Below the pieces are notes generated by a model that was not told where the DNA came from, made no database searches, and worked only from the letters and a program-made list of their open reading frames with translations. Below are positions 12,691-46,569 of a DNA stretch of 64,000 nt, piece by piece. The position numbers were made by a program, and so were the translations under genes. The stretch's first letter is position 1. Each line of letters begins with the position of its first letter. The stretch comes from Nitrosomonas sp. Is35 (GTDB lineage Bacteria > Pseudomonadota > Gammaproteobacteria > Burkholderiales > Nitrosomonadaceae), in the NCBI RefSeq assembly GCF_033063295.1, contig NZ_JAWJZH010000001.1:930001-994000 (forward strand), in the 5' to 3' direction.

Positions 12691-12972
12691 TTACAGCTGC
12701 TCGTAATGCCCGCCAATGGCGAAAATATACACATACTTGTCGTCAAATTTGTAGATCACACGATCTTTTTGGCTAAGCCTACGCGACCAAAAGCCTGTTA
12801 AGTTATGACGCAACATTTCCGGTTTGCCGATACCCGCCGCCGGATCATCGCGCAACATTTCTTTCAGGATGTTGCAAAGCGATTTATGCAGGCGCGGGTC
12901 ACGTGTTTTCAGTGTTTCGTATACTTCCCACGTATTACCTTCAAACACCAAGGATCTTTTGGGTTTCTTCAT
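12691..12972 (-). CDS. yoeB: YoeB/Txe-family mRNA-interferase toxin
   Basis: A 93-residue RelE-superfamily toxin of the YoeB/Txe branch, which cleaves mRNA in the ribosomal A site. The pattern GKPEMLRHNLTGFWSRRL, then DRVIYKFDDKYVYIF and the C-terminal GGHYEQL provides the catalytic Glu, Arg and His-Tyr pair. The N-terminus (SLVFEGNTWEVYETLKTRDPRL) carries the extra helix of the group. Its ATG lies 32 bases inside the antitoxin gene, a typical overlap for translational control. Confidence 0.93.
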   Translation of the reverse strand: MKKPKRSLVFEGNTWEVYETLKTRDPRLHKSLCNILKEMLRDDPAAGIGKPEMLRHNLTGFWSRRLSQKDRVIYKFDDKYVYIFAIGGHYEQL

Positions 12973-13213
12973 CCGAGGGTGTGTATCCCGATTTTGTGGC
13001 GTGGGTTTGTGTCGAAGCCAGAATTTGTTGCATTAGATGGGAATTTTGAAGCACAAAAAGCGTTTCTTGATCACGCACCCAATCCTCGGCGCTGATGACC
13101 ACAAAATCCTCACCGCTCCGACGGGTAATTTTAACCGGTTGATGTTCGCTGATAACCTTCTCAACGATATTTTTCAGGTTGTCGCGAAATTTATTGACGC
13201 TGATATTATCCAT
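12941..13213 (-). CDS. yefM: YefM/Phd-family antitoxin
   Basis: A 90-residue antitoxin of the Phd/YefM fold from ATG 13213. The N-terminal DNA-binding and dimer part reads MDNISVNKFRDNLKNIVEKV, followed by PVKITRRSGEDFVVISAEDW, the hallmark of the family; the C-terminal tail (residues 55-90) should wrap the toxin. An upstream in-frame start would add 11 residues that do not resemble the family. It precedes and overlaps yoeB, and the complex normally represses its own promoter upstream of 13213. Confidence 0.92.
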   Translation of the reverse strand: MDNISVNKFRDNLKNIVEKVISEHQPVKITRRSGEDFVVISAEDWVRDQETLFVLQNSHLMQQILASTQTHATKSGYTPSDEETQKILGV

Positions 13214-13583
13214 TTTGATTTCCGTACAATATAACTGTGCATTCAATTAACAATGGCAACAGTAACATAGTCATTGCATTGGGAACAAATCGTAGTTATG
13301 TAATTTTTGAAAGTATCAATTCAAACTGTTCACGATGATACCTTGATAAGGTCGCAGGCATTAGATTTTTGCAAAATCTTTGTATAGCAATTTGTAGCAC
13401 TTGATTTATTTGAGTGTGTCGATTGTAAGGTTTGATCCCACCGATGCAGTTATTTATAATCCGAGTGATAAAAAATTAGACATCAAAGTGTTTGGCGACA
13501 TAATCTTGCGGAGGCTATCTGTAATTGCCTAATTTCATGAGCAATGCGATTTGGCCACTTGGAACCAAAGTGTTCATTCAGCA

Positions 13584-13591
13584 ATTTATTA
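13584..13591. repeat. Target-site duplication, left copy
   Basis: ATTTATTA lies directly outside the left inverted repeat and is identical to 14921-14928 outside the right one. An 8-base duplication is typical of IS256-family insertion. Confidence 0.92.
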
Positions 13592-13620
13592 GGAGGTGTA
13601 AATAATTTTGTGTAAATGGT
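13592..13620. repeat. Left terminal inverted repeat of the IS
   Basis: GGAGGTGT, five unmatched bases, then ATTTTGTGTAAATGGT. Reverse-complementing the right end gives GGGGGTGT, five bases, then ATTTTGTGTAAACGGT, with the same spacing. Confidence 0.92.
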
Positions 13621-13659
13621 CATATTGCAGGAAACTGTTTATATATTTTTGGAGCAAAA

Positions 13660-14889
13660 ATGACCACACCCAAACCCCTGCCAGCCGGCTTAATTGATAG
13701 CCTGCTGGCCGATTACAAAAAGCCAGAAGATTTAATCGGTGAGCATGGTCTTCTCAAGCAACTCACCAAAGCGTTGGTTGAACGTGCCTTGCAAGCAGAA
13801 ATGGCCGATCATCTTGGTCACGATAAGCACGAAACGGTAGTCAATGCCACTGGCAATACCAGAAATGGTAAAAGCCGTAAGACCCTGAAAGGTGAATTCG
13901 GTGAGTTACCCATCGAGATCCCCCGTGACCGTGAGGGCAGCTTCGAGCCTCTGATCATTTCCAAGCATCAGACCCGCTGGGCGGGCTTTGATGACAAGAT
14001 CCTCTCGCTGTATGCCCGTGGCATGACAGTGCGTGAAATCCAACAGCACCTCACTGAAATGTATGGCACAGAAGTATCGCCTACGCTCATTTCTACGGTC
14101 ACTGATGGCGTAATGGATGAAGTGAAGCAGTGGCAATCCCGGCCTCTCGATGCGGTGTATCCTGTGATCTATCTCGATTGTATCCATGCCAAAGTTCGTG
14201 ACGCTGGTAGCGTTCGTACCAAAGCGATTTACCTGGCGATCGGCATTAACATGGAGGGCCATAAAGAAATACTGGGCTTATGGATTGCTCAGACCGAGGG
14301 TGCCAAGTTCTGGCTCAGCGTTGTCACTGAACTCAAAAATCGTGGCGTGCAAGATATCTTTATCGCCTGTGTCGATGGCTTAAAGGGCTTTCCCGAAGCG
14401 ATTGAAACCATCTATCCACATGCCATTGTACAACTCTGTATCGTGCACATGGTTCGTAATAGTCTCAACTACGTCGGCTGGAATAAACGCAAGGAAGTAG
14501 CTGCTGATTTACGTTTGGTCTACAGCGCCGCCACGATTGATGAGGCTGAACACGCGTTAGCCGACTTTGAAGATAAATGGAACTATGCTTATCCACCGAT
14601 CGCCCGATCTTGGCGCAATAACTGGCAACGCATCATTCCATTCTTCGACTACCCGCCTGAGATACGGCGCATTATTTACACCACCAATGCGATTGAGTCA
14701 GTCAATATGAGCCTACGCAAAGTCAGCAAAAACCGTGGATCGTTTCCCAACGATGAAGCTGTGATCAAATTGTTCTATTTGGCTCTCAGCAATATCGCCA
14801 AAAAATGGTCTATGCCACTAAGAGATTGGAAACCGGCACTAAACAGGTTTACTATTCAATTTAACGAAAGAATGCCTCGGCATTATTAA
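13660..14889 (+). CDS. IS256-family transposase
   Basis: A 409-residue DDE transposase of the IS256 (transposase mutator) family. The N-terminus has LTKALVERALQAEMADHLGH, followed by NTRNGKSRKTLKGEFGELPI and IPRDREGSFEP, all standard for the family. The catalytic triad falls at Asp in VIYLDCIHAKVRD, Asp in FIACVDGLKGFPEAI and Glu in TTNAIESVNMSLRK. The frame has no visible damage, so the element may be active. The stop codon lies two bases before the right inverted repeat. Confidence 0.95.
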   Translation: MTTPKPLPAGLIDSLLADYKKPEDLIGEHGLLKQLTKALVERALQAEMADHLGHDKHETVVNATGNTRNGKSRKTLKGEFGELPIEIPRDREGSFEPLIISKHQTRWAGFDDKILSLYARGMTVREIQQHLTEMYGTEVSPTLISTVTDGVMDEVKQWQSRPLDAVYPVIYLDCIHAKVRDAGSVRTKAIYLAIGINMEGHKEILGLWIAQTEGAKFWLSVVTELKNRGVQDIFIACVDGLKGFPEAIETIYPHAIVQLCIVHMVRNSLNYVGWNKRKEVAADLRLVYSAATIDEAEHALADFEDKWNYAYPPIARSWRNNWQRIIPFFDYPPEIRRIIYTTNAIESVNMSLRKVSKNRGSFPNDEAVIKLFYLALSNIAKKWSMPLRDWKPALNRFTIQFNERMPRHY

Positions 14890-14891
14890 CC

Positions 14892-14920
14892 ACCGTTTAC
14901 ACAAAATCTAGGACACCCCC
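14892..14920. repeat. Right terminal inverted repeat of the IS
   Basis: Matches 13592-13620 in reverse complement, with mismatches limited to a 5-base block and a few single positions. On the minus strand it supplies the false C-terminal codons and stop of the truncated Mrr-type protein. Confidence 0.92.
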
Positions 14921-14928
14921 ATTTATTA
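14921..14928. repeat. Target-site duplication, right copy
   Basis: ATTTATTA, identical to 13584-13591. Confidence 0.92.
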
Positions 14929-15853
14929 AGGGAAACGAAATCAATCAGCTCAATCATGGCATTCTCAGAAGCTTCTTGTTTAGCAGGCAAAGTAAAATTA
15001 CTGGTTGCAACAACGATGCCTTTATTCGCTTGTTTTCTGGCAACTACTCCTCTTAGTTCACGTATGGTTTGGACACCTACGGCTTTTTCATATCTTTTAC
15101 ACTGAATTAACACAAATACACGTCCGCCCGGATCATCACGTTTAGCTTCCACATCGACGCCACCATCACGAGAAGTCTGGGTAACTGCTACTTGGTAACC
15201 CATGTGTTCGAATAGCGCACCAACCAAATACTCAAACTCCTCCGGTCCGAGGGAAAGAAGAGATTCACGTGGATTGTCGCAATGCAAGTATCGACGGCGA
15301 ATGATTGCTTCAGCATCAGATAGACCGTGTATTCGTCCGTCTGGAAGTGTCTGACAATGTGCCATGAAAAATCCATCAAGCACATCAAGGGTCTTCCTCG
15401 GGTAATGCGGAAGGAGATCGAGTATCCAGGTAATGCCTTCCCATGGAAGAAAAGGCGGTTCGGTTAGTCGACGGATAAACTCGTTTTCTTCGATTAACTG
15501 AGCAAGTTTTGCAGGAGCTAGATCATGTATCGAATGGCGCATAAGATGATCTGTACCGAGCGATCCGCTTGGAACTAGGAAATTACGGAGCAAGTCTCTT
15601 ACCTGATTTTCTGAGAAGGTATAAATCTTGTCCAGAAATTCATCACGATGTTCATCAGTAGGAAACTGGTAGTCAATGATTTGATAGGTACGCTCGTGCT
15701 TTGGCACTAGAACATGCGAGAGCCAATCATTTAGAGACAAGGTTTCCGCCTCAATCAGCGGTTTCTTTGTCTTTGATTGTGGGTTCGGCATAGCGATTGA
15801 GATGATACTTAACTAAAAAATGAGCCTTGGATTTACCAGCAGATAACGAAGAA

Positions 15854-16696
15854 TCATGACAGCGCATCCCGATGATACTGCAAATGCTCACCCACAAACG
15901 TGCTGATAAAGTAATAACTATGGTCGTAGTCTTGATGATAACGCAGTGTGAGTTGCTGACCGGCATCGCCGCAGGCTTGTTCGAGCGCTTCGGGGAAGAG
16001 TTGTGTGGCTAGGAATTGATCGTTGAATCCCTGATCGACGTGCAGGCCGGGGACGCGGTGTCCGGCTTGGAGTAGGGTGGTGGTGTCATATTTTTTCCAG
16101 TCTTGCTGATTTTCACCGAGGTAGTTGCTGAATGCTTTTTGTCCCCACGGGCAGCGTATCGGGGCGCAGATTGGTGCGAACGCGGAGACTGAGCGGAACA
16201 GTTCGGGGTAGCGCAGCGCAAGCGTTAACGCGCCGTGTCCACCCATCGAGTGGCCGAAGATACCGATGCGGTTTGGGTCGGCGGGGAATTGTTCGACGAT
16301 GATGTTGCGCAGTTCCTGCGTGACGTAGCTTTCCATGCGGTAATGCCGCGCCCACGGTTCGGCGGTGGCATCGAGATAAAATCCCGCACCGGCACCGAAA
16401 TCCCAGGCATCGGTTTCACCGGCAATGCCGGTTTGGCGCGGGCTGGTGTCCATCGTGACCAGCATCAAGCCGAGCTCGGCGGCGTAACGTTGTGCCCCGG
16501 CTTTGATCATGAACGTTTCTTCGGTACAAGTCAGTCCAGCGAGGAAAAAAAGCACGGGAACGGCGTGATCTTTGGCTTGCGGCGGTTGATACACCGAGAA
16601 GCGCATCGGCAGGCCGATCACCGTGGATGGATGCTGATAATAGCCCTGGATGCCGCCAAAACAGTGATGCAGGCTGCGGGTTTCGAGTGCCGTCAC
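15854..16696 (-). CDS. fghA: S-formylglutathione hydrolase
   Basis: A 280-residue esterase-D-family alpha/beta hydrolase that releases formate and glutathione from S-formylglutathione. The nucleophile motif is FGHSMGGHGAL near residue 148, the acid and His come from the C-terminal part (the HQDYDHSYYFISTF segment is diagnostic), and the N-terminus with CFGGIQGYYQHPS and LAGLTCTEETFMIKAGAQ fits the family. It follows adhC by two bases on the same strand, so the two enzymes of glutathione-dependent formaldehyde oxidation are made together. Confidence 0.97.
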   Translation of the reverse strand: MTALETRSLHHCFGGIQGYYQHPSTVIGLPMRFSVYQPPQAKDHAVPVLFFLAGLTCTEETFMIKAGAQRYAAELGLMLVTMDTSPRQTGIAGETDAWDFGAGAGFYLDATAEPWARHYRMESYVTQELRNIIVEQFPADPNRIGIFGHSMGGHGALTLALRYPELFRSVSAFAPICAPIRCPWGQKAFSNYLGENQQDWKKYDTTTLLQAGHRVPGLHVDQGFNDQFLATQLFPEALEQACGDAGQQLTLRYHQDYDHSYYFISTFVGEHLQYHRDALS

Positions 16697-41825: not shown

Positions 41826-43814
41826 GTGACCGACCAGAACAATAGCAGCATCGCCAATTCACTTGACCCAGCCGCCGACCGCCGCCAGCAATTGGTTGCA
41901 TTGATTCCCGAAGCGTTTTCTGAGGGGCAGCTTGATGTTGCTGCGCTCAAGCGAGCGTTGGGCGCTGAAGCTATCATCGAAGGGGGCGAACGCTATGCGC
42001 TTGCTTGGGCTGGCAAAAGCAATGCCTACAAGGTACTGCAAACCCCCTCTACCGCTACACTGCGCCCGCAACGTGAATTGTCGGTCAACTTCGATGAAGC
42101 GCAGCACGTCTTTATCGAGGGAGAAAATCTGGAAGTGCTCAAGGTGTTGCAGAAATCCTACTTTGGCAAGGTCAAGTTGATCTATATCGACCCACCGTAT
42201 AACACCGGCTCAGACAGTTTCATCTACCCAGACCGTTTTCAGGAAAGCAAGGAAGACTATCTGCGCCGCATTAACGATCTGGCCGATGACGGCACACTGA
42301 TGCGCGAAGGCTTCTTTCGCAAGAACAGCAAGGAGAGCGGTCGCTACCACAGCAACTGGTTGTCGATGATGCTGCCGCGCCTGTACATCGCACGGAATCT
42401 GTTGCGCGAGGATGGGGTGATTTTCGTGTCGTGTGACGACAACGAGGTGCATAACCTACGGCTGCTCATGAACGAGATCTTCGGCGAGGAAAACTTCGTT
42501 GCTCAGCTCGTGGTCATCAATAATCTGAAAGGCCGTAATGACAAGAAGAATGTTGCGACTTGCCACGAATATCTACTTGTCTTTTCGCGCAACGAGTTCG
42601 AGTCGCACGGTCTGCCATTGACCGAGGATCAACTGAAAAATTTCAAGTATATAGATTCACGCGGAAAGAAGTATGCGCTCCGTGACCTTCGTAAACGTGG
42701 CTCCCAGGATCAGCGTAAGGACAGGCCCAAGATGTTCTTTCCAATTTTCTACAACGAAAGCACGAAGAAGCTTTCCTTGACCAAACAGTCTGAAAACGAT
42801 GTGGCAATTCTGCCGAAGAGGGGCGATGGCAGTGAAGGCCGCTGGCGCTGGGGGAAAGACTCGGTTTCAAAGAACCTTGCGATCCTTGAGGCAAGGTATT
42901 CAGATTCTAAAGGTCGATGGGACGTTGACTATCGTGTGTACCTCGAACCGAATGCCACAGAAACAGAGGTCGATGAAGAAGATGATGACGATGACGAACT
43001 CTTTGAGCGCACATCGAAGTCTAAGTCGTTCTGGATTGGCGGCGAAATTTCCACTGACGTTGGAAAGCGCGAGTTCAAAGAGTTGTTCGAGGAGGGATTC
43101 TTTGATTACCCGAAGTCGCCATTTCTAATGCGGCGGATCGTTCAAATGGCGACTCGGGGAGATGATCTGATCATGGATTTCTTTGCGGGGACGGGAACTA
43201 TGGGACAGGCGGTCTTGGACATCAATCAGACCGAACGAACTGCTCGTCGCTTTGTTTGTGTCCAGTTACCGGAATTGATTGAGTCAGAGAGTGACGCAGG
43301 GAAAGCAGGTTTCTACAGTCTCGCTGAGGTTTGTAGGGAACGAATCAAGCGAAGCATCGGACGTGCTGAAGATGCTGTCGATCTCGCAACGCCCGCAACA
43401 GCCAACCTTGGTTTTAAATCCTTTCTGCTCGCACCCTCCAACTTCAAGCAATGGCGCGGTGATAACATCGACTCACCCGAGCAACTGGCCGAGCAGATGC
43501 AGATGTTTGCCAAGTCCGAGAAAGATGGCGCAGCAGTGGAGCACATACTTTACGAACTGTTATTGAAATTCGGCCAAGAGCTGACCACGCCAGTTGAAAC
43601 GCTGGATGTGGCTGGCGGCAAGGTATTCGCCATCGATCAACGCAAAATGCTGTTCATTCTAGATACTTTCACCGAAGCGATGATTCAGCCGATGATGGAG
43701 ATAAAGCCGCGCGAGATTATTGTCATTGATGGCGTGTTCCTTGATTTAGACCCGCTCAAGTCTAACCTCGATTTGCAGTGCCGCGATGCTGGAATCAAGT
43801 TCACCTGCCTGTGA
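41826..43814 (+). CDS. mod: Type III restriction-modification methyltransferase (Mod)
   Basis: A 662-residue beta-class N6-adenine methyltransferase, starting at GTG 41826. Motif IV is IYIDPPYNTGSDSFIYPD near residue 120; motif I is MDFFAGTGTMGQAVLDI near residue 450; so the order (IV before I) is of the beta class. The part between (about 230-420) is the target-recognition region and includes an acidic run (EVDEEDDDDDELFE) near residue 380. Its stop is 10 bases before the Res start. No simple-sequence tract that could support phase variation was seen. Confidence 0.95.
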   Translation: MTDQNNSSIANSLDPAADRRQQLVALIPEAFSEGQLDVAALKRALGAEAIIEGGERYALAWAGKSNAYKVLQTPSTATLRPQRELSVNFDEAQHVFIEGENLEVLKVLQKSYFGKVKLIYIDPPYNTGSDSFIYPDRFQESKEDYLRRINDLADDGTLMREGFFRKNSKESGRYHSNWLSMMLPRLYIARNLLREDGVIFVSCDDNEVHNLRLLMNEIFGEENFVAQLVVINNLKGRNDKKNVATCHEYLLVFSRNEFESHGLPLTEDQLKNFKYIDSRGKKYALRDLRKRGSQDQRKDRPKMFFPIFYNESTKKLSLTKQSENDVAILPKRGDGSEGRWRWGKDSVSKNLAILEARYSDSKGRWDVDYRVYLEPNATETEVDEEDDDDDELFERTSKSKSFWIGGEISTDVGKREFKELFEEGFFDYPKSPFLMRRIVQMATRGDDLIMDFFAGTGTMGQAVLDINQTERTARRFVCVQLPELIESESDAGKAGFYSLAEVCRERIKRSIGRAEDAVDLATPATANLGFKSFLLAPSNFKQWRGDNIDSPEQLAEQMQMFAKSEKDGAAVEHILYELLLKFGQELTTPVETLDVAGGKVFAIDQRKMLFILDTFTEAMIQPMMEIKPREIIVIDGVFLDLDPLKSNLDLQCRDAGIKFTCL

Positions 43815-43824
43815 TGCCGCGCAA

Positions 43825-46569
43825 ATGAAACTGCAATTCGACGCAAACCAGGATTTTCAGCTTGAGGCCATCCATGCGGTAGTTGCTTTATTTGAAGGGC
43901 AACCCGATGCTTCGCAAATTTCGGTCGGTTGGAATGATGAACTTTCCAGCCTGAAACTCACGGAAACCGGCGTGGCAAACCAGCGCGTAATTACCGACGA
44001 GCAATGGCTTGCCAATTTGAATGCGGTGCAGGAGGTTCACGGAATAGAGCTCTCGGCTGCGTTGGAAATGATGAAGCTGGAAGATGACATAGATGTTGGT
44101 GCATTTCCAAACTTCACCGTGGAGATGGAGACCGGCACCGGCAAGACTTACGTCTATCTGCGCACGGTGTACGAGCTTTCCAAAACCTATGGCTTCAAGA
44201 AGTTTGTGATTGTGGTGCCGTCGATTGCTATTCGCGAGGGCGTGCTCAAGAGCTTGCAGATTACCAAGGAGCATTTTCAGACGCACTATAATTATGAGCG
44301 CGTTGAGTTTACAGTTTACGACTCGACCAAGGTAAATCAACTACGCAATTTTGCTCTGTCGAACGCAATCCAGATTCTGGTGATTAACATTGATGCTTTT
44401 GCCAAAGACTCGACCGAAGCGGACAGCGCGGCCAAAAAGAAGAACAAGGGTAACGTCATCAATCAGGTGCGGGAGACTGGGATTGCGCCGATTGAGTTCA
44501 TCCGCGCGGCGCATCCTATTGTGATCCTTGATGAGCCGCAGAATCTGGAGACGGATAACCGCAAACAGGCTATCGCGCGCCTTGCCCCTATGTGTACCTT
44601 GCGCTACTCGGCCACCCACCGCAATACCTATAACCTGATCTATTCGCTCGACCCGGTACGTGCTTACGAGAAAGGGCTCGTGAAACAGATAGGGGTTGAT
44701 TCGGTGATTGAGTTGAAAGATGCGAATCAGGCTTTCGTTGAGGTTGAGGGTTTCAAAACAGGGGCTCGTAGTGTGTCAGCCAAGCTGTCGATTTGGGTGA
44801 ACCAAACGCAAGGCCCCGCAAAAAAAAGCATTACTGTGAAGAATGGCGACGATCTTTATAAGTTATCAAATCAGCGCGAGATTTACCGCGAAAGTTTTAT
44901 CGTCAACGAAATTGACGCGGGGGAAGGTTTTATAACTTTTGCCAACGATGTGAGAGTTCGCGCAGGAAGTCCACATGGGGCGTTGACTGACACGATTTTG
45001 CGTTTGCAGGTTGAGGCTACGATACGCCGACACTTTGAAAAGGCGCTGAAATTGCATCCATTGGGCATTAAGGTGCTATCCGTATTTTTTATTGACCGTG
45101 TGGCGAATTACCGTGTCTATAACGAGGATGGTACTGTCAGCAAGGGTAAATTTGCCGATTGGTTTGAAGAAATTTACGAACAGTATCGAGCAAAGCCTGA
45201 CTTTGCCGGGCTACGGATGCATGAAGGGACGAAAGTTCATAATGGTTATTTTTCTCAGGACAAACGGGCGGTTTCGCCTTTTGAGACGTTGACTGGCAAG
45301 ACCAACGCGGATGCCGAAGCCAGTACATTCGAGTTAATTATGCGCGACAAGGAACGGCTGTTGGATATTGCTGAGCCGTTGGCCTTCATTTTTAGCCATT
45401 CCGCATTACGCGAAGGATGGGATAACCCTAATGTGTTTCAGATATGCACGCTGGCAGAAAGCAAATCGGACATTAAAAAACGGCAGGAAATTGGGCGGGG
45501 GCTTCGTTTGTGCGTGAATAAAGACGGCGAACGGGTATTTGATCGGACGATTAACCGTCTGACAGTGATTGCAAACGAGAGCTATGAGGATTTTGCCAAC
45601 CAGTTGCAAACCGAGATGGTCGAAGCAGGGGTGAAGTTCAAGCGCGAGATGGTTAAAAACGAGCGTGATAAAATTACGGTGCGGCTCAAGAAGGGCTACG
45701 ATACAGACAACGAATTTTTGACGCTATGGGACAAAATTCGAGCGAGAACGCGCTATCGCGTAAATTACGATACAGGTGACTTGATTACCAAGGCAGCGAA
45801 GCGAATTAAAGAAAAGATGCCAACTATTGAGCGCCCGAAAGTTGCATTGACGCGTGCTGATATTATTATCAGCGCTGCTGGGGTAAATGGAAAACAGACT
45901 GGCTTTCGCACTCAGTCAATGGAAGAAAAATATGTGATGCCGGATTTTGTTGGGCAAGTGCAGACAAAGACAGGACTGGCAAAGTCCACCGTGGCGCGTA
46001 TTCTGCTTGATTCCGGACGGCTTGCGGATGCCGTCAAAAATCCTCAGGCATTCATTGATCATGTGGCGGAAGTGGTGAATTCCGTGAAGCGTGAGGTGCT
46101 GGTGAATGGTGTCGAATATTTCAAGGTCAATGGTCTAGCCTACGAAATGCGCCGTTTTGAGGGCGATGATCTAATGGATGTGTTTGCATCCAACGTGGTA
46201 GCGGTAGAAAAGCAAGAAAAAACCCTGTTCTCGCATATTGTCATTGATTCTAACTCTAGCCCGGAACGCAACTTTGTTCAGGCATGTGAGGACAATGATG
46301 ACGTGCTTTTCTACATTAAATTGCCGCGCTGGTTCAAGATCGAAACGCCTGTGGGATCGTATAACCCGGATTGGGCACTGGCTTATCGCAACGATAAGAT
46401 GCTATATTTTGTAGCTGAGACGAAAAAGACAGGTAGCGGTGACCATGTGCAGATTGATCTGCTGCGACCGATTGAAGAGCTACGCATCGAATGCGGCAAG
46501 CGACACTTCAAGAATTTCGAGGAAGTGCAGTTTAAGGTAGTCAGTTCGCTAACAGAGTTGTTGAGTTGA
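43825..46569 (+). CDS. res: Type III restriction endonuclease subunit (Res)
   Basis: A 914-residue helicase-nuclease from ATG 43825. Superfamily-2 motifs: Walker A METGTGKTYVYLRTVYELS near residue 95, DEPQ box HPIVILDEPQNLETDN, motif III LRYSATHRN, and motif VI KKRQEIGRGLRLCVN. The C-terminal nuclease centre is SYNPDWALAYRNDKMLYFVA followed by ETKKT (PD...ETK). With Mod it should cut DNA between two inversely oriented unmethylated sites. Both genes appear intact. An upstream ATG at 43786 inside mod is less likely. Confidence 0.95.
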   Translation: MKLQFDANQDFQLEAIHAVVALFEGQPDASQISVGWNDELSSLKLTETGVANQRVITDEQWLANLNAVQEVHGIELSAALEMMKLEDDIDVGAFPNFTVEMETGTGKTYVYLRTVYELSKTYGFKKFVIVVPSIAIREGVLKSLQITKEHFQTHYNYERVEFTVYDSTKVNQLRNFALSNAIQILVINIDAFAKDSTEADSAAKKKNKGNVINQVRETGIAPIEFIRAAHPIVILDEPQNLETDNRKQAIARLAPMCTLRYSATHRNTYNLIYSLDPVRAYEKGLVKQIGVDSVIELKDANQAFVEVEGFKTGARSVSAKLSIWVNQTQGPAKKSITVKNGDDLYKLSNQREIYRESFIVNEIDAGEGFITFANDVRVRAGSPHGALTDTILRLQVEATIRRHFEKALKLHPLGIKVLSVFFIDRVANYRVYNEDGTVSKGKFADWFEEIYEQYRAKPDFAGLRMHEGTKVHNGYFSQDKRAVSPFETLTGKTNADAEASTFELIMRDKERLLDIAEPLAFIFSHSALREGWDNPNVFQICTLAESKSDIKKRQEIGRGLRLCVNKDGERVFDRTINRLTVIANESYEDFANQLQTEMVEAGVKFKREMVKNERDKITVRLKKGYDTDNEFLTLWDKIRARTRYRVNYDTGDLITKAAKRIKEKMPTIERPKVALTRADIIISAAGVNGKQTGFRTQSMEEKYVMPDFVGQVQTKTGLAKSTVARILLDSGRLADAVKNPQAFIDHVAEVVNSVKREVLVNGVEYFKVNGLAYEMRRFEGDDLMDVFASNVVAVEKQEKTLFSHIVIDSNSSPERNFVQACEDNDDVLFYIKLPRWFKIETPVGSYNPDWALAYRNDKMLYFVAETKKTGSGDHVQIDLLRPIEELRIECGKRHFKNFEEVQFKVVSSLTELLS

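Follow-up and report, generated by a model that had tools for sequence, protein, structure and literature searches.

Does the Mrr-domain protein of 301 residues encoded in the 64,000-nucleotide stretch of Nitrosomonas sp. Is35 DNA analysed here (the window) represent a complete nuclease, or is it what an insertion sequence has left of a longer one, and, if so, was the gene cut by chance or to the benefit of the cell? The three matches to ammonia monooxygenase (PF02461) in the genome point to an ammonia oxidiser as the host. The features on which the argument depends are collected in Table 1.

Table 1. Features of the window relevant to the interrupted Mrr-domain gene (mrr).
Feature	Position	Strand	Remarks
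YefM-YoeB-type toxin-antitoxin pair	12694-13219	-	
GTATCATCG, second copy	13333-13341	-	beside apparent former fghA end
Segment with mrr gene and IS, absent in relative G090	13342-15878		about 1.2 kb without IS and one duplication
Severed 3' end of Mrr-domain gene	13483-13583	-	includes TGA 13483-13485
Target duplication ATTTATTA, low-coordinate copy	13584-13591		exact 8 bp
IS256-family insertion sequence	13592-14920	+	1,329 bp; ends alike at 22 of first 31 bases
IS256-family transposase	13660-14889	+	409 aa; PF00872, NF033543
Interrupted Mrr-domain nuclease ORF	14886-15791	-	301 aa: 290 native and 11 from IS end
Target duplication ATTTATTA, high-coordinate copy	14921-14928		exact 8 bp
GTATCATCG, first copy	15870-15878	-	in 3' end of fghA
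Type III R-M pair mod-res, intact-looking	41826-46569	+	about 26 kb from mrr
mod	41826-43814	+	662 aa; PF01555
res	43786-46569	+	927 aa; ResIII and RE_endonuc domains

Insertion sequences of the IS256 family carry terminal inverted repeats and generate target duplications of 8-9 bp. The element bordering our gene had been placed in this family in the initial annotation, which also described matching inverted repeats and exact 8-bp duplications. The placement is confirmed by the scores of the transposase against the NCBIfam model NF033543 (IS256 family; 428.8 bits, cut-off 150) and against PF00872 (413.1 bits), and the duplication is exact as described; the terminal repeats are present but match imperfectly. 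A Mutator/IS256-type transposase, terminal inverted repeats and an 8-bp target duplication, as found in this family, are all present here. The nearest full-length plasmid-borne match to the element, in Sulfuriferula nivalis, reaches 72.4%. A chance origin of the ATTTATTA duplication can be dismissed, the 8 bp being the same at both ends and the pattern recurring at 7 of the 14 full-length or nearly full-length copies of the element in this genome. The arrangement as a whole is more than chance because the exact duplication and its recurrence are combined with a known IS family and with the alignment of the severed tail to homologues of the nuclease.

When the flanks are joined without the IS and one copy of the duplication, an open frame is obtained that runs to the TGA at 13483-13485, as the initial annotation had foreseen; this empty-site reading comprises 323 residues and not the 334 given there. 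The 290 native codons of the interrupted frame contain no further break. Its final 11 codons belong to the IS, in line with the false tail of that length described earlier, and the 301-residue protein and its 290-residue prefix score alike (250.5 bits both) against the profile of uninterrupted homologues introduced below, which rules out residue 301 as the natural gene end. The claim that the whole D-QxK catalytic core is still encoded held as well. Mrr_cat (PF04471) matches residues 179-291 over profile positions 2-114 of 115 with 114.8 bits (cut-off 21), eight PADLOC models, some of them for type IV restriction enzymes, also have their matches inside this region, and the retained residues D213 and Q230-C231-K232 form the D...(D/E/Q)xK pattern of an Mrr_cat nuclease. 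In Pfam, nothing matched residues 1-175 at E values up to 5, and an Mrr_N winged helix like that of EcoKMrr was not recognised in them; this part could still possess a winged-helix fold too diverged for Pfam. The search of solved structures by sequence returned three chains at E 0.18-0.73, none of which is a credible relative.

The other 124 genomes of the host family yielded no close orthologue of the Mrr-domain gene, and the test of the severed tail therefore rests on distant homologues (29-40% identity). Matches at E <= 1e-10 occur in 17 of the 125 family genomes, own genome included, and those listed outside the own genome are confined to query residues 157-293, with identities of 28-45%. 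At the level of the class, 5 of 369 genomes (again with our own) gave a match at E <= 1e-14, one of them full-length (G256), and among 398 genomes of the phylum a four-row alignment at E <= 1e-30 matched the own genome only. Matches were obtained in 286 plasmid records, a single one of which extends over 80% or more of the query, and the Paenibacillus protein, used in turn as a query against plasmids, matched only itself and the Mesobacillus record. Four phage records matched, none of them covering 80%; the viral scan with a single protein yielded 0 relatives from 4 stretches, and the scan of genome contigs yielded 2 relatives from 28 stretches, neither of them across the whole protein. Full-length homologues were thus found only at 40% identity or less. 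The search for an uninterrupted orthologue in related strains, proposed initially, gave nothing close within the family, but the distant homologues do support the tail.

Four uninterrupted homologues (P0001-P0004) were used as a profile for testing the tail: those of the Paenibacillus crassostreae plasmid (P0002; 29% identity to the window protein), the viral contig L048 (P0004; 31%), the Mesobacillus foraminis plasmid (35%) and genome G256 (40%). The empty-site reading scored 271.1 bits against this profile, so that the severed tail adds 20.6 bits to the score of the prefix. Neither 5,000 tails taken from elsewhere in the window (13400-16000 left out; maximum 263.0) nor 1,000 shuffled tails contained one that reached this value. 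It was reached once among 2,000 control ORF tails from a pool that included the gene region (maximum 275.0), which we attribute, unchecked, to the gene's own 3' end in the pool. Against single homologues, shuffled tails as good as the real one numbered 0/1,000 for both P0002 and P0004, 27/1,000 for P0001 and 192/1,000 for P0003, and control ORF tails as good (the same 2,000, with the gene region in the pool) numbered 1, 1, 26 and 315, respectively. The homology of the LLNEHFG tail, the loss of which had been proposed from the start, is therefore significant with P0002 and P0004 and marginal with P0001, and it does not reach significance with P0003. Following the last strand, ILLNAHLGSDW is found in both P0002 and P0004 as against KLLNEHFGSKW in the severed piece. 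Judged by this homology, the 13483-13583 piece is the real tail of the Mrr-domain gene.

The tail is not a general one, however. In a set of 29 Mrr-domain homologues (30 chosen from the fetched loci minus L003, which had a low score of 49; L040 and the window's own gene are not part of the set), the empty-site reading scored higher than the interrupted protein in 21 cases, equally in 6 and lower in 2 (L024 and L036), with a gain of at least 13 in only 5 (L039, L043, L045, L046 and L048). Since the gains are mostly small or nil, alignment marks the LLNEH tail as a feature of an Mrr subfamily and not of Mrr domains at large, and the suggestion that LLNEH is their usual end was not borne out.

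The IS itself is abundant in this genome (3.3 Mb, 2 contigs), in which 17 matches were found, 14 being full-length or differing from full length by at most 4 bases. Compared with the window copy, five of the 14 (the window copy included) show no mismatch, three show one and six show 3 to 15. Some match is present in 43 of 85 genomes of the genus, own genome included, at most 4 candidates having been scored in most of them, and near-full copies at 94-97% are found in four other species; we found no literature on IS256 in Nitrosomonas. From a laboratory E. coli, an IS10-marked deletion is described by which mrr is lost (PMC4444293). The five identical copies among the 14, together with native codons free of any other break, fit a recent insertion into the Mrr-domain gene that would have taken place during the expansion of the element.

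Several other copies deserve mention in their own right. One (L004) lies within an integrase-core gene. Another (L015; G000:C1:776409-777737), without a target duplication, adjoins an ORF whose product has an AbiGi-like domain (abortive phage resistance) and may have cut a second defence-type gene. A third (L010; G000:C1:1180400-1181728), flanked by an 8-bp duplication, separates two open frames (499 and 299 codons) that have no Pfam match and are in compatible register, and thus probably represents another interrupted long gene. The copies L006 (G000:C1:1328809) and L011 (G000:C1:591388) have 447 identical right-flank bases in common, and the left 8-mer of L013 is the same as the right 8-mer of L005, a pattern suggestive of duplication or recombination involving copies of the element.

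The Mrr-domain gene also appears to be a newcomer at its site. The fghA gene was found in 20 of the 31 genomes searched, own genome included, and mrr was absent from the fghA loci of all 11 relatives inspected, each together with some 1.5 kb of flanking sequence. In one relative, G090, fghA is directly joined to yefM-yoeB with no mrr segment between them, and its alignment with the window runs up to 15870 and resumes from 13300. Because the segment is absent at the same site in G090 and GTATCATCG is present at both its ends as 9-bp direct repeats (13333-15878), it looks like a later gain. The GC content of mrr is 45.0% vs 57.3% in fghA. The stretch 13341-13583, which comprises the severed 3' part and the sequence downstream, occurs nowhere else in the own genome and in none of 30 relatives, and terminal inverted repeats of the segment were not seen by eye. 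The gene was probably acquired horizontally; loss of the segment in G090, in place of gain in the window lineage, could also have produced the difference. The yefM-yoeB pair of G090 stands at the same site and encodes proteins 90% and 94% identical to those of the window, the DNA being 88% alike in this pair vs 82% in the neighbouring fghA region.

The explanation that we consider well supported is that a recently multiplied IS256-family element hit a horizontally acquired Mrr-type nuclease gene in its 3' end, and that the gene product is now most likely inactive or weakened. The element would have expanded recently in the genome and inserted by chance near the 3' end of a single-gene nuclease, duplicating 8 bp of target and putting 11 codons of its own and a stop codon in place of the final 33 native ones; the catalytic core would thereby stay encoded and the subfamily C-terminal LLN.HLG..W segment would be lost. 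It is because this segment has been cut off that we regard the clipped enzyme as likely, if unproven, to be dead or weakened. Activity could nevertheless survive, since Mrr_cat is matched over nearly its whole length even in the interrupted protein. It is therefore conceivable, although we would not expect it, that the gene still yields a working nuclease with a shorter and altered C-terminus, the IS merely providing a new stop. The retention of D213 and Q230-C-K232 would permit this, and tails past the domain vary widely, with little or no gain in most of the 29 homologues. Against it stands the motif LLN.HLGS.W, which follows the last strand in a similar form in P0002, P0004 and the severed piece, and its sharing within the closest subfamily suggests a structural role.

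Whether the insertion was selected is a separate question. That the cell rid itself of a toxic nuclease, as the initial annotation had suggested, is possible in principle because a type III R-M system lies on the same stretch; with such a methylase in the cell, the nuclease would have attacked the host DNA. Both of its genes look intact, and it is sporadic in the genus, mod homologues at E <= 1e-40 being found in 10 of 85 genomes, own genome included; three N6_N4_Mtase matches in the own genome exceed the cut-off. One report describes the StyLTI methylase as toxic in combination with E. coli Mrr and the two loci as seemingly mutually exclusive (PMC8989522), and the StyLTI site is of the type III kind according to another (PMC12707154). 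On the other hand, the methyl-dependence of our nuclease is only putative, no Pfam family matches its N-terminal part, the genome still has two further Mrr_cat matches and yielded no C5 methylase, and either event, the R-M gain or the IS insertion, may have come first. In the second of these papers, moreover, StyLTI is stated to have cloned poorly in a host deficient in Mrr for reasons other than Mrr (PMC12707154). Fourteen copies of the element require no selection, and since the IS expansion suffices, a chance hit is the simpler reading and is kept as the main one; we consider a selected insertion improbable. The same low expectation applies to a frozen epigenetic conflict, in which a sporadic type III R-M system would have met an incoming Mrr-type nuclease and the expanding IS would have clipped the conserved tail of the latter. 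If such a conflict did take place, the locus would represent a genetic escape from the incompatibility of a methyl-dependent nuclease with a methylase, in addition to the silencing of a promoter described in Pectobacterium (PMC8989522).

With the chance insertion as the preferred reading, the locus is a well-preserved but ordinary IS disruption of an Mrr-domain nuclease gene. It illustrates clearly how an expanding IS can break a defence-type gene, here one seemingly gained recently, in the subfamily-conserved tail and not in the catalytic core, and for annotation purposes the gene should be described as an interrupted Mrr-domain nuclease and not as an intact protein of 301 residues.

Compared with known systems, the element agrees with the IS256 family in transposase family, size (about 1.3 kb), terminal repeats and 8-bp duplications, and no feature that would distinguish it was found. 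With EcoKMrr and other Mrr_cat type IV nucleases the window protein has in common the C-terminal Mrr_cat domain with D...QxK; it differs from EcoKMrr, which possesses a winged-helix part according to two papers (PMC3874153, PMC12707154), in lacking a recognised Mrr_N winged helix and in having its C-terminus cut by the IS. The full-length homologues, namely the 'restriction endonucleases' of the Mesobacillus foraminis and Paenibacillus crassostreae plasmids and the proteins of L048 and G256, are distant, uninterrupted and carry ECK where the window protein has QCK, but they share its two-part layout, and the restored tail can be aligned clearly with two of them and marginally with one.
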